Shown here: positions 525 through 8,917 of the stretch, piece after piece | How the letters are laid out: the number at the start of each line of letters is the position of its first letter | Numbering within the stretch: the first letter of the stretch is position 1 | Assembly (NCBI GenBank): GCA_937951675.1 | Contig: CALFBI010000020.1 | Span: 1 to 62,797 of the forward strand | Length of the DNA stretch: 62,797 bases | Reading direction: 5' to 3' | Origin: an uncultured Verrucomicrobiales bacterium | GTDB taxonomy: Bacteria > Verrucomicrobiota > Verrucomicrobiia > Verrucomicrobiales > Akkermansiaceae | Notes under the pieces: model-generated | The model's database searches: none | What the model was told of the DNA's origin: nothing | The model's input: the letters and a program-made list of their open reading frames with translations, nothing else | Position numbers and translations under genes: made by a program

Positions 525-741
525 TCTAGATTTGTTGGGATTGATTGTTTTTGGAAAGCGAAAAGTTAAGACATCTTAAATTAAAAAGGGCCTTGCGATA
601 TCCGGGTTTTATCTTTTATAACTTGATGGATGTTAAACAAAAGAGAGATTTTAGATTCTAGTCCTTCCCAAGTAATATCCGAAACGAATATCACTCCTTC
701 ATTCCTATAATAAGACTGTTCGCTAAAATTTCTAAAAATCA

Positions 742-1248
742 ATGACCTCTCACTTAATTAGAATTACAAAGGCTATTGCAGCTTTAACGATTTTGTTGTT
801 TTTTTCATCTTGTTCTTTGCCCCCTCTTTTTGTCGAGCAGGGTGTTAATCCTAGTTCAAATCGAACTGTCACTATCAAACGATCCTTAAACATACATAAA
901 GGATTTACTGCGAGAAGAATGTATATTTCGAAGATTGACGGAGCTCCGGCTCAAGAATCCAAGGAATATAAATTAGCACCTGGTAAACGAAAATTGGAAG
1001 TCGGCGCCCAAGTTGGAGGTATGCATGCAAGTGGTGTCTTAGTTTCTGCCAATCTCTCCCCCGGTAAGACCTATAGACTTAACCCTTCAATTGGTCCGAT
1101 TACTAGGGAAGGCATGGAGTATGTTGCGCCATTTGTTCCCACCATTATTGATGAGGCGAATGGTCAGGTGATTCATTTGAAAATATTAAATCCAGATGGA
1201 AAGCAAAGCTCTGTGCGACAGGTTTTACCAGCGCTTATGATGCCATAA
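742..1248 (+). CDS. Putative lipoprotein, cassette-type gene
   Basis: A 168-residue protein with a lipoprotein signal: a basic N-terminus (MTSHLIRITK), a hydrophobic core (AIAALTILLFF) and the lipobox SSC near residue 24, so it is predicted to be a membrane-anchored periplasmic or outer-membrane lipoprotein. The mature part contains an ISKIDGAP motif, then LAPGKRKLEV and LSPGKTYRLN. The next gene (1433-1903) carries the equivalents RIDGETP, LSPGTRTLEF and AGESYTAH in the same order, so the two appear to be divergent members of one family. No Shine-Dalgarno precedes the ATG. An attC-like palindrome starts 57 bases after the stop. Function unknown. Confidence 0.7.
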   Translation: MTSHLIRITKAIAALTILLFFSSCSLPPLFVEQGVNPSSNRTVTIKRSLNIHKGFTARRMYISKIDGAPAQESKEYKLAPGKRKLEVGAQVGGMHASGVLVSANLSPGKTYRLNPSIGPITREGMEYVAPFVPTIIDEANGQVIHLKILNPDGKQSSVRQVLPALMMP

Positions 1249-1304
1249 TATAGTGTTTCGACTCATGGGTATCACTGGACTAGTTACTGGTTGTCGCAGC
1301 GATG

Positions 1305-1426
1305 CGAACAAGGTGCTGCTGAGCAATCCGCTACCGCCGAGTAGTTGAATTTTATGAATACTAGAACCTTTAACCCCTTCGTCGAGCTGGCGCCGCCTGT
1401 AGCGGATGCCAGAGCATAGACGTTCG
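1305..1426 (+). repeat. attC-like palindromic site A
   Basis: A 122-base imperfect palindrome. CGAAC at 1305-1309 pairs with GTTCG at 1422-1426, TGCT at 1314-1317 with AGCA at 1413-1416, and ATCCGC at 1326-1331 with GCGGAT at 1402-1407. This nested, interrupted pairing is the architecture of integron attC sites (R''/R' outer core, L''/L' inner box, variable centre). The outer core CGAAC departs from the usual RYYYAAC consensus. The site shares its first 24 bases and its centre with site B, and sits between the stop of one small gene and the start of the next, which begins 11 bases after the GTT. Confidence 0.65.
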
Positions 1427-1432
1427 ATATAA

Positions 1433-1903
1433 ATGAAATCTATCCCAGCTCTCTTCCTGACAATAATGCCACTTTTACTGGTTTAGTGTGGATTGATTCC
1501 AGGGACTCACGTTGCTCCTAGAGAAGACGCTCCTCACGCAAAAATCTATGCAGATGGTGAACCATCTCTTGTGAGAATTGATGGAGAAACCCCACGTCTT
1601 AGGTCAGGAAACAAAGTTATTACTAGGCTTTCTCCTGGGACTCGGACTCTGGAGTTTTACGACAGAGTGACCGATGCGAAAACTCTTGGTGAATTGCGCA
1701 CTAAACAAGGTTTGGAAATGAGAGTAAGGGCTTTCTTAACTTTTCAAGCTAAGGCAGGAGAATCATACACTGCGCACATGAAAATAGCTTTGGATAAGTA
1801 TGATTTTTGGTTGACAGATAGGAGTGGGAAAATAGTGAAGAAAGTTTCTGCAAAACCATATTTTGTTGAGAACTACTATCTTAGAAATACTGTTATCTAC
1901 TGA
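1433..1903 (+). pseudogene. Lipoprotein gene with amber stop in its lipobox
   Basis: Reading from the ATG at 1433 gives a basic start (MKS), a hydrophobic core (IPALFLTIMPLLLV), a TAG stop at 1484-1486 and then, in the same frame, Cys-Gly and a 138-codon open frame to the TGA at 1901-1903. The stop sits exactly at the -1 position of a lipobox (LLV-stop-C), where Ser, Ala or Gly is expected; a TCG serine codon differs from TAG by one base. Without the stop this would be a 156-residue lipoprotein. The mature part (RIDGETP, LSPGTRTLEF) resembles the lipoprotein at 742-1248. The open frame beginning at TTG 1493 would lack any export signal, so it is probably not functional. The ATG lies 11 bases after the GTT of attC-like site A. 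Confidence 0.75.
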
Positions 1904-1912
1904 ATCAATTAT

Positions 1913-2034
1913 CGAACAAGGCGTCGCACCACAATCCACTTCCCGCTGAGTAGTTTAGTTTTATGATTTTTAGAACCCTAACCCCTTTGTCGAACCGGCG
2001 CTCCCGGCAGGCGGTGACTGCGCTTCGCGCGTTC
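1913..2034 (+). repeat. attC-like palindromic site B
   Basis: A second 122-base element, the same length as site A. The left end reads CGAACAAGGCGTCGCACC and the right end GGTGACTGCGCTTCGCGCGT then TC, with CACC/GGTG, GCG/CGC and GAAC/GTTC able to pair. The first 24 bases (GAACAAGG...CAATCC) and the centre (TTTTATGA, TAGAACC, AACCCCTT, GTCGA, GGCGC) match site A closely. It begins 9 bases after the stop of the lipoprotein pseudogene. The next gene starts 11 bases after its GTT, exactly as at site A. The repeated length, sequence and spacing support a genuine recombination site. Confidence 0.65.
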
Positions 2035-2041
2035 CTAAAAG

Positions 2042-2530
2042 ATGCCAAGACCAAGTCTAAACCTGTCGTTTCGACTCATAGCAATCGTAATATGCCTATT
2101 TGCCATTCTTCCACTGACTCTTGGTGGCTGGGGATATTTACGCACATCCGATTTCATAGCAGAAGCTTCATCTGCACAAGGTGAAGTAATTGATTTAATT
2201 GAGAATAACGGGTCTGAAGGTGGATCAACTTATGCTCCACGCATTAGGTTCACCGAAAGTTCAGGGAGAGTAATTGAAGCTACCAGTTCTACTTCCAGCT
2301 CGCCACCTAAGTATCAGCCTGGCGACGTTATTAAGATACTTTATGACCCTAATACGCCACAGGATGTCCGAACTACTGATTGGTTTTCATTATGGGGTCT
2401 AGCAACAATAGGATTATCAATTGGAGGATTTACTATATTGTTTACATTGGCTGTTGCATTTTTAGGACCATTGATTCTAAGAGGCTTCAGAACAAAAAAT
2501 GGAGAACAAAGCGTCGTTCCCAATCCATGA
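2042..2530 (+). CDS. DUF3592-type membrane protein in a cassette
   Basis: A 162-residue protein of the DUF3592 pattern: an N-terminal membrane segment (LIAIVICLFAILPLTLGGWGYL), an extracytoplasmic beta-rich domain (GEVIDLIENN... YAPRIRFTESSGRVIEATSS... YQPGDVIKILYDPNTPQDVRT), then a second hydrophobic region (LATIGLSIGGFTILFTLAVAFLGPLIL). The phrase PGDVIKILYDPNTPQDVR is the family hallmark. The role of DUF3592 proteins is unknown. The ATG lies 11 bases downstream of attC-like site B, and the last codons (GEQSVVPNP) are written in what seems to be the left arm of a third site. A second, non-cassette DUF3592 gene is at 25786-26304. Confidence 0.8.
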   Translation: MPRPSLNLSFRLIAIVICLFAILPLTLGGWGYLRTSDFIAEASSAQGEVIDLIENNGSEGGSTYAPRIRFTESSGRVIEATSSTSSSPPKYQPGDVIKILYDPNTPQDVRTTDWFSLWGLATIGLSIGGFTILFTLAVAFLGPLILRGFRTKNGEQSVVPNP

Positions 2531-2615
2531 CCAGTCCTTGAGTTTGTTGGGAATGTGTGTAGTTTGTGAGTGTCTTTCCGTTTCGGGATGATCAGCCGCA
2601 TAATGACGGTTAGGC
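2503..2615 (+). repeat. Possible attC-like site C, overlapping a gene end
   Basis: The last codons of the DUF3592 gene read GAACAAAGCGTCGTTCC followed by CAATCC, matching the left ends of sites A and B (GAACAA, G, G at fixed positions and CAATCC after about 17 bases). About 100 bases downstream, GGGAT and AGCCGC precede GGTTAGGC at 2608-2615, so AAC/GTT, GC/GC and ATCC/GGAT can pair, and TTAGGC fits the TTRRRY core consensus. The centre does not match sites A and B. The following gene starts 71 bases later rather than 11. It is weaker than the first two sites. Confidence 0.4.
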
Positions 2616-6451: not shown

Positions 6452-8917
6452 ATGAAGATGAAAAAGCGCTTAGCCTTTATTGTTTTATTCACAGGGATAG
6501 GCTTTGTTTCTGGGCAGGTTTTGCCGGCAGGCTTTGAGAAAAGCAAAGGAGGGGATAAAAAAGTGGCTTTGACTAAGTCTGGCGATCGTATTCCTTATTC
6601 TCAAATCTCCTTAAGTGACTTAGGCCCGATTAAGGTTAAGTATTCGATGAAAGGGGTTAGGAAGGTGTCGAAGGCACCAGCACCAGGCCAGCACCCTAGG
6701 ATGCTTCATAGCCCAAGCGACCGTAAAATGCTGCTCGATATTTACCAGGGAACCGAACAAGGCCAGTTGCTTTGGAAAATGCTGGAAGGGTATACTAATA
6801 AGTTAAAGGGCAAAATTGAAAACAGAAATGAGTATCCCAAGCATCCTAATGGAAAGCCTCTAGCAGCTTATCAACGCGGAGGGTGGGATAAGCAGATTCA
6901 CAACCGTTATAAAGAAATCATAGGCGGTAAATATGAGGATAAACGTCTTAATATGAACGATGAGATGTTTTCGATCATGGTTTTAGAGGCCTTTCGGTGC
7001 TGGGTGATGAATGATCGTGACGCGGCCAAAGAATATCTAAAAGCGACAGAAGTGATCGTGGACCAGCTTCTTAAGCACATCAAGGAAGGTGACCATTGTT
7101 CCTTTATTAGCGCGCATAATATGGGGTTTATTTATGACTATGGACATCCTTTTATGTCGAAGACACTTCGTAATAAAGTGAGGACTTTGATTGCCAGAGT
7201 TTCGGTAAACGCGGCCCATTATGGGACCTTTGTAGATGCCGTTGCAACGACTTCAAATTGGGTGACCTTAGATTCCTTTCAGGCTTTCACTTTAGCCGCG
7301 ATCGAGGGAGAAGAAGGATTCAACAAAGATTATTTTAAAGGCTTTAAGCGAGCTTATCACAACTTCATTACCTATGGCTTTTATGCTTCTGGATGTGGTT
7401 ATGAAGGTTTAGGTAAGAATTATCAATTCAATGCAACTATGGTGCTCCTTGCCAAGAGGGGGATGAATTTAATTGGGCATCCTCATGTGCATGCGTATGC
7501 GAAGAATTTTTTACCAGCAATTAGCCTTCCTCACGGAAATGGATTTGTTGCGACAGATGATTGGGGAGGAACAGGGCTTGATGAGATTAAAGGAGACTAC
7601 CGTTTCAGTGTCATAGATGTGATCGGGCTAAAGTGGATGTATCCGACAGACCCTGGGGTGGATTATGTATGGCGCTCTTACTTCGGAGAGAATTATGAAC
7701 GGTATACAGATGTGCGCTCTGCTGGTTACTATAATACGGCCTTATTTATGATTGGGTTTCCTTCACAACCACTCGAAAAAGCCCCTAGTGTTCAAGAGGC
7801 CGGGATTAAGCTTAACCATTTCTTTCCAGAACGAGGGTATCAAATTTCACGCTCAGACCTGACAAAGGATTCTTTGTTTCTTACTCATCACTGCCGGCAG
7901 GATAATGGTGGACATACTTCAGCAGATCGAAATCATTTTGTATTCGCATCACATGAACGGCTTTGGGGCCGTTCTTTAACAGTGGCGGGGGGATCTAAAT
8001 TCGGAAAAGTGAATGAGTCTCGGTTCTTTTCAACGGTGCTCATCGATAACAAAGGGCAGTGCGGGATGGCGACAGGCTGTTTCCCCGTGCCAGGGAAAGT
8101 GACGTCCCAACATGATTCAAAACTATTCTCTAGTATGACCGGTGATGCGAGCTATGCCTATAGTTGGGAATGGCATTGGAGAAAAGGAGAGGTAGGGAAA
8201 GAGTCCCCGATGTTGAAAAAAGGGTGGGAAAAGGTTTTAGAAACACCTAATGATTTCCAATATCAACCTATCAAAGGAAGACCACATATGAATCAAGCGT
8301 TCTATGAAAAGCCTCATTGGTTGTCTCCAGGGAAAATCCAACATTATGTAAAACGTCCCTACAATACAGTTCAAAAAGCGAAAAGAATCACGGCGATGGT
8401 TAGGGGGAAATCCCCTTATGTTCTCATCGCGGACGATATTCAGAAAGATGAGCTCACACACGAATATAAGTGGATCATGCAGGCGGCAAGTGATTTGGAA
8501 ATTGTTAAATACCACTTCACCAAAGATTCTGATATTCACGATATTTACCTCTGTGGAAGTGAGGTGAAAAGGAACGAAGCTGATAAACGAGTTCCCAAAA
8601 AAGGAGATCCAGTGCTTTTGGTAAGAGTCTTACAAAACGAGACGGAAAATCACTGGGATACTCCTATTGGGAGATTAGAACAGTATATGGATAACATTCG
8701 TCGACCTCAAAAGGCAGGGAAACGTCTCGTGATCACTTCTACTTCAGTCGCTCCTAAGTTTAAGGTGATGCTCTATCCTCACCTTCATGGAGATCCGATC
8801 CCTGAAACAAAATGGGCTCAAAATGGTGAGCAGTTAGGAATCAAAATCGGGGCTCAAGTGGATACCGTAAGCTTCTTCACAGGTGATACGAAAGATCAGC
8901 TTCAAATTATTCGGTAA
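6452..8917 (+). CDS. Secreted heparinase II/III-like protein
   Basis: An 821-residue secreted protein with a signal peptide (MKMKKRLAFIVLFTGIGFVSG). The region from residue about 80 (APGQHPRMLHSPSDR) through about 460 is the alpha/alpha-toroid domain typical of heparinase-type lyases. The following beta-sandwich begins near FPERGYQISRSDLTKDSLFLTHHCRQDNGGH and continues with ADRNHFVFASHERLWGRS, resembling the heparinase II/III C-terminal domain. Such enzymes cleave uronic-acid-containing glycosaminoglycans or alginate-type polymers by beta-elimination; the substrate here cannot be read from the sequence. The gene stands alone between terminators, so no utilisation locus is evident. No Shine-Dalgarno. 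Confidence 0.75.
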   Translation: MKMKKRLAFIVLFTGIGFVSGQVLPAGFEKSKGGDKKVALTKSGDRIPYSQISLSDLGPIKVKYSMKGVRKVSKAPAPGQHPRMLHSPSDRKMLLDIYQGTEQGQLLWKMLEGYTNKLKGKIENRNEYPKHPNGKPLAAYQRGGWDKQIHNRYKEIIGGKYEDKRLNMNDEMFSIMVLEAFRCWVMNDRDAAKEYLKATEVIVDQLLKHIKEGDHCSFISAHNMGFIYDYGHPFMSKTLRNKVRTLIARVSVNAAHYGTFVDAVATTSNWVTLDSFQAFTLAAIEGEEGFNKDYFKGFKRAYHNFITYGFYASGCGYEGLGKNYQFNATMVLLAKRGMNLIGHPHVHAYAKNFLPAISLPHGNGFVATDDWGGTGLDEIKGDYRFSVIDVIGLKWMYPTDPGVDYVWRSYFGENYERYTDVRSAGYYNTALFMIGFPSQPLEKAPSVQEAGIKLNHFFPERGYQISRSDLTKDSLFLTHHCRQDNGGHTSADRNHFVFASHERLWGRSLTVAGGSKFGKVNESRFFSTVLIDNKGQCGMATGCFPVPGKVTSQHDSKLFSSMTGDASYAYSWEWHWRKGEVGKESPMLKKGWEKVLETPNDFQYQPIKGRPHMNQAFYEKPHWLSPGKIQHYVKRPYNTVQKAKRITAMVRGKSPYVLIADDIQKDELTHEYKWIMQAASDLEIVKYHFTKDSDIHDIYLCGSEVKRNEADKRVPKKGDPVLLVRVLQNETENHWDTPIGRLEQYMDNIRRPQKAGKRLVITSTSVAPKFKVMLYPHLHGDPIPETKWAQNGEQLGIKIGAQVDTVSFFTGDTKDQLQIIR

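Follow-up and report, generated by a model that had tools for sequence, protein, structure and literature searches.

The window analysed here, which is the entire contig C20 (62,797 bases) of genome G000 (2.05 Mb in 28 contigs, 96.8% complete), very probably holds one of six gene cassette arrays in this genome that are headed by an attI site and have no integrase gene beside them. The original prediction, a decaying integron cassette array without an integrase (CALIN), is supported by the attC sites, the cassette ends, the further copies and the missing intI described below. The decay it proposed is apparent in a degenerate attC3 and in the broken gene of cassette 2, whose frame from ATG1433 meets an in-frame TAG at 1484-1486, directly 5′ of a lipobox-like Cys. 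The layout it gave was right in that small genes are separated by attC sites, but a conserved attI at 540-720, before cassette 1, had been missed (Table 1).

Table 1. Features of the cassette array at the left end of the window.
Feature	Position	Strand	Description
attI leader (AIL)	540-720	+	Reads as attI; conservation stops at crossover GTT 718-720
Cassette 1	719-1422	+	attI GTT to attC1 GTT; start GTTCGC, own attC start GCGAAC
Cassette 1 gene	742-1248	+	168-aa predicted lipoprotein; no Pfam family assigned
attC1	1303-1427	+	Imperfect palindrome, three extrahelical bases on L″ arm; GTT 1422-1424; R1 E 9.8e-24
Cassette 2	1423-2031	+	Start GTTCGAT, own attC start ATCGAAC
Cassette 2 gene	1433-1903	+	Lipoprotein-like frame, broken; remaining open frame 1493-1903, 136 aa
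attC2	1911-2036	+	Weakly paired; GTT 2031-2033; R1 E 1.5e-20
Cassette 3 gene	2042-2530	+	DUF3592 protein, 162 aa; Pfam PF12158 E 3.9e-10
Degenerate attC3	2501-2612	+	Left end GAACAAAGCGTCG; possible right end GTTAGGC from 2609

The two elements of about 122 bases at 1305-1426 and 1913-2034 are attC sites. They lie where they were first noted, share their left ends and centre, and each has an ATG at a distance of 11 bases from the G of its GTT (1433 after GTT 1422-1424, and 2042 after GTT 2031-2033). The accompanying claim that both fold holds above chance for the first element only. Element 1 folds better than its own shuffles (z -2.3 on one strand and -2.7 on the other), which element 2 does not, and its anchored AAC...GTT pairing scores 33.0 against a best of 30.7 in 20 Markov-randomised sequences of 62.8 kb, whereas the score of element 2 (22.6) is at chance level in the same comparison. 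Structure alone thus proves only element 1, and element 2 is secured by homology (E 1.5e-20 with covariance model R1, of which it is itself one of the building sites) together with the complementarity of its cassette ends, GTTCGAT/ATCGAAC. Model R1 was built from 15 attC sites of G000 and contig G079:C53 (alignment A3). The original prediction depended on there being further copies in the genome, and these exist: a search of G000 with R1 returned 10 strong attC sites, spread over three contigs and all among the model's own building sites, and two weak ones. One of the latter (2501-2584, E 0.74) is the third, weaker copy that had been suspected, now recognisable as the degenerate attC3, whose own arms pair no better than foreign arms (rank 17/19 on swapping arms). 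Searching with element 1 led to copies on contigs C9 and C18, where arrays of small genes are separated by xxxAACAAGGCG...GACGTTxxx sites. Across the 15 sites, and on a hand-set structure, 39 cells are altered on both sides against 20.9 after shuffling (0/500 shuffles), and sliding the partner by one column lowers pairing from 72.7% to 46.7% or less. When arms are swapped between sites, own arms score 24.3 against 18.1 for foreign ones (0/100,000). The sites show AAC...GTT boxes flanking an imperfect palindrome whose structure is conserved through compensatory change. Two sub-types can be told apart by whether the left arm has two or three unpaired bases, and known attC sites likewise carry such extrahelical bases on one arm. 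RNAalifold predicted no pairs on a MAFFT alignment of the attC sites, owing to the difference of one extrahelical base between the sub-types, and an Rfam scan returned no attC family, only a tRNA. On C9, an attC-like stretch (L045, approximately 7690-7845) forms an uninterrupted hairpin of about 18 bp with no extrahelical bases and has lost its GTT; it is possibly a dead attC.

The start of a cassette (GTTxxx) and its own attC box (xxxAAC) were once a single site on the circular cassette, and for this reason the two are expected to be complementary. Of 20 cassettes for which both ends are available, 17 show this complementarity over three bases, compared with 3.25 expected from permuted ends (17 was reached in 0/100,000 permutations). 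In the window, GTTCGC/GCGAAC for cassette 1 and GTTCGAT/ATCGAAC for cassette 2 obey this rule and cassette 3 fails it, in line with its degenerate attC. The CGAAC/GTTCG outer core, which had been taken as a departure from the canonical form, is indeed present but is no defect: the three bases beside AAC/GTT are specific to each cassette and match between its ends. One small plus-strand gene had been placed before each element, and cassettes do mostly carry one gene in a single orientation. The segments between attC sites are real integron cassettes, and the arrays of G000 that contain them are short (1-8 cassettes) and dispersed. In one cassette on contig G079:C53 (L059, 1383-1920), DUF2442 and DUF4160 genes adjoin as a two-gene unit. 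The elements are palindromic, intergenic and repeated, as inverted repeats unrelated to integrons (REP- or MITE-like sequences, or transcription terminators) would also be, but such repeats are refuted, with next to no probability left to them, by the complementarity of ends cassette by cassette, the extrahelical bases, the single orientation and the attI junctions.

The leader before cassette 1 is about 185 bp long and occurs at six loci in G000, 84-97% identical, with divergence starting right after the GTT. In addition to the window copy, these lie on C9 (316-503, 31100-31283 and 33307-33494), at the right end of C9, from where the locus continues into contig G079:C53, and on C11/C18, a single locus split across two contigs with an exact overlap of 108 bp. 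Every one of the six opens a cassette array, with constant sequence upstream of the crossover at GTT and variable sequence downstream. The five complete first cassettes behind a leader all obey complementarity (p 0.017, from five cases only). The leader core, AATAAnACTGTT, is also found at intI-adjacent sites of relatives, and it is through this core motif only that the leader resembles attI beside genuine intI. At 32 intI loci of relatives, the core AATAA-N1-3-CTGTT stands 5′ of intI and points away from it in eight cases, compared with 0.1 expected, and on the wrong strand in none. Long similarity to the leader was found nowhere outside G000 and contig G079:C53, and AIL pattern scans of genome and viral contigs and a BLAST search of plasmids gave no match. 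Because its core matches these intI-adjacent sites and all five first cassettes fit by complementarity, the leader at 540-720 is, on sequence criteria, an attI at whose GTT the first cassette would have been inserted. Several attC and attI sites of G000 still look intact enough for use by IntI. The leader also contains a possible Pc promoter, TTGCGA-18-TATAAC, which is unsupported by a consensus promoter scan that found nothing above chance. A longer form of about 290 bp, starting AGTCTTTTCGG, is seen in stretches L045 (9101-9380), L057 (9268-9515) and L059 (1-240); two of these copies come immediately after an earlier array, which places arrays in tandem. Contig G079:C53 was considered as independent proof of the leader in another genus, in which it is binned, and was rejected for this purpose: an exact overlap of 107 bases links it to the end of C9, and its tetranucleotide profile is nearer to G000 (0.76) than to G079 (0.48). 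The contig was probably misbinned, belonging to a G000-like organism and joining C9.

No integrase lies in the window, as the original prediction had it, and profile searches extend this to the whole of G000. Of the three conditions that were named as refuting the prediction, the absence of intI is thus the one that applies to this genome. A PF00589 search of the genome gave three matches only, two XerC/XerD-like genes and a fragment of 99 aa, and an integron-integrase model found nothing above its cut-off. The fragment, on contig C10, was rejected as a remnant of IntI since it matches only profile positions 268-308, and also for its position among apparent IS3 transposase fragments. The latter (L047, 5293-5735 and 8167-8589) adjoin this C-terminal tyrosine-recombinase fragment and a Fic/DOC gene. 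The contig begins only 540 bases 5′ of attI in the window, and these bases hold a gene for a 148-aa membrane protein and no intI-like frame or remnant. At the readable leader flanks in G000 no intI was found at any; apart from this membrane protein gene, the upstream neighbour is an earlier array (twice) or genes that we take, from their translations, to be YqeY-like, hrpB-like and thiH-like. G000 therefore has clusters of at least two attC sites with no neighbouring intI, as in a CALIN, and nowhere an intI adjacent to attI, as in a complete integron. Differing flanking genes (presumably hrpB-, thiH- and YqeY-like) might be expected of an ordinary CALIN, in which cassettes were inserted off-target at non-attI sites (attG) and there is no attI. 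We consider this highly improbable and largely refuted, given that a leader of about 185 bp ending at GTT precedes every array, which attG sites would not share, and that the leader core matches the intI-adjacent attI of relatives. Off-target insertion is nevertheless a published route to CALINs (PMC8618304). It is also possible that intI sits in one of the gaps of this draft assembly of 28 contigs, so that its absence is an artefact and one of the arrays is a complete integron. True intI is present in 24 of 58 family genomes, and leader repeats at contig ends break the assembly, but five of the six leader loci have a known upstream flank, made up of a chromosomal gene or another array, and neither the 540 upstream bases of the window nor the three PF00589 matches offer a candidate; we regard an artefact as unlikely.

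Integrons are widespread among the relatives of G000. The attC model matches 123 of 195 family genomes and 13 of 16 genera, with no match in the listed genomes of genus g3. Complementarity also holds for the first cassette behind each of 11 attI sites read across four relatives, extending to four bases in ten of them. Genome G119, which is closed, possesses three intI loci, of which one is broken, and in addition an array at 163-174 kb (L137) that is headed by attI and lacks intI. This array has a leader of about 600 bp that shares 98% identity with the genome's intI-attI platforms and extends into the intI open frame. G119 also carries a large chromosomal integron, about 60 kb in size, beside a complete intI (C1, 2191-2253 kb; L145 and L138). 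Genome G069 similarly combines three intI loci with one integrase-less array headed by attI (L149). In G014 there is one IntI and there are approximately 30 copies of its attI leader (33 BLAST pieces), found on contigs C15, C14, C39, C46, C31, C21 and C9 (stretches L155, L159, L165, L166, L167, L163 and L160, respectively); on the 18-kb contig C15, at least seven leaders alternate with attC sites at intervals of roughly 2 kb. An exact complementary box lies downstream in 8 of the 22 G014 leader copies with GTT, against 2.0 expected, and since only these retain it, part of the copies have probably decayed.

We envisage that IntI would have inserted the cassettes of G000 by recombining folded bottom strands of attC with attI, the enzyme having been encoded at one platform that has since been lost or escaped assembly, or having been supplied in trans. 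The arrays would now be mostly fixed and slowly decaying, as the in-frame TAG of cassette 2 and the degenerate attC3 suggest. Recombination by IntI does not on its own move attI. The multiple attI sites might have arisen when platforms were duplicated and intI was then lost, to which the integrase-less copy in G119 is the clearest pointer because it has about 600 bp in common with the intI-attI platforms. Alternatively, the leader could be an older dispersed repeat, MITE- or promoter-like, whose end serves IntI as a preferred target. We judge this to be quite improbable: copy number (about 30 in G014 and six in G000) and left edges that vary in G000 (about 185 or 290 bp) speak for it, but all copies in G000 head cassette arrays, leader sequences vary by species yet keep the core and GTT, the repeated block of G119 extends into the intI open frame, and no terminal repeats or target duplications were noticed on casual inspection. 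Our preferred reading of the leader remains attI. A broader proposal, which we advance tentatively and hold at somewhat below even chances, is that the integrons of this family are distributed, with one IntI or none and many scattered or tandem attI sites (six in G000, about 30 in G014) that each have a short array. Units of attI might in that case be copied or moved too, for example where attI lies between two attC sites (C9 of G000 and C15 of G014). If so, cassettes would be expressible from many promoter-proximal first positions at once, and genomes with many attI sites would change the idea of a single promoter-adjacent cassette per integron.

The complementarity rule, combined with conservation that ends at GTT, offers a simple means of recognising attI where intI is absent. 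Such detection would separate CALINs that arose by loss of intI from those due to off-target insertion; CALINs are common, and their origin by off-target insertion, intI loss or rearrangement is debated and open in the literature (PMC8618304). Beyond class 1, attI sites have been described so little that IntegronFinder omits them, and CALIN finders do not detect them there either (PMC9024848). Integrons have been recorded in Verrucomicrobiota (PMC8618304). Our literature search, which had no reach into subscription papers, found no description of multiple attI sites per genome. The usual description of an integron has a single attI next to a single integrase.

The term CALIN denotes clustered attC sites that have no integron integrase (Cury et al., cited in PMC8618304 and PMC9024848). 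The arrays of G000 share with it tandem attC cassettes in the same orientation without a neighbouring intI, but differ in that each keeps a recognisable attI, of one type common to six arrays. Sedentary chromosomal integrons of the Vibrio type are similar in being chromosomal, with attC sites alike within a genome, and G119 has its array of about 60 kb by intI, whereas G000 has short, dispersed arrays (1-8 cassettes) that lack intI. For Xanthomonas, the part of the source that we drew on describes intI as inactivated or lost, with cassettes that outlive it and CALINs at several chromosomal loci (PMC12444791). This resembles the situation in G000, where cassettes likewise lack intI at several loci; in contrast, Xanthomonas intI has a single ancestral locus (ilvD), and multiple copies of attI are not described in that part of the source (PMC12444791). 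The closest parallel is prophage M16-3 of Shewanella, which carries a CALIN with its own attI, there being one complete integron and one CALIN with the same attI (PMC9892861). There too an integrase-less array is headed by attI, which ends ...CACTAATAAAATGTT, close to the core of the family (for example CACTAATAAAACTGTT in G001) (PMC9892861). An attI-headed CALIN is known from this one report, and a high copy number of attI was not found described. The window is accordingly filed under attI-headed integrase-less arrays in several copies, the parts of which are known individually: the Shewanella prophage has one such array, whereas G000 has six and no integrase, and G014 has about 30 copies of attI.
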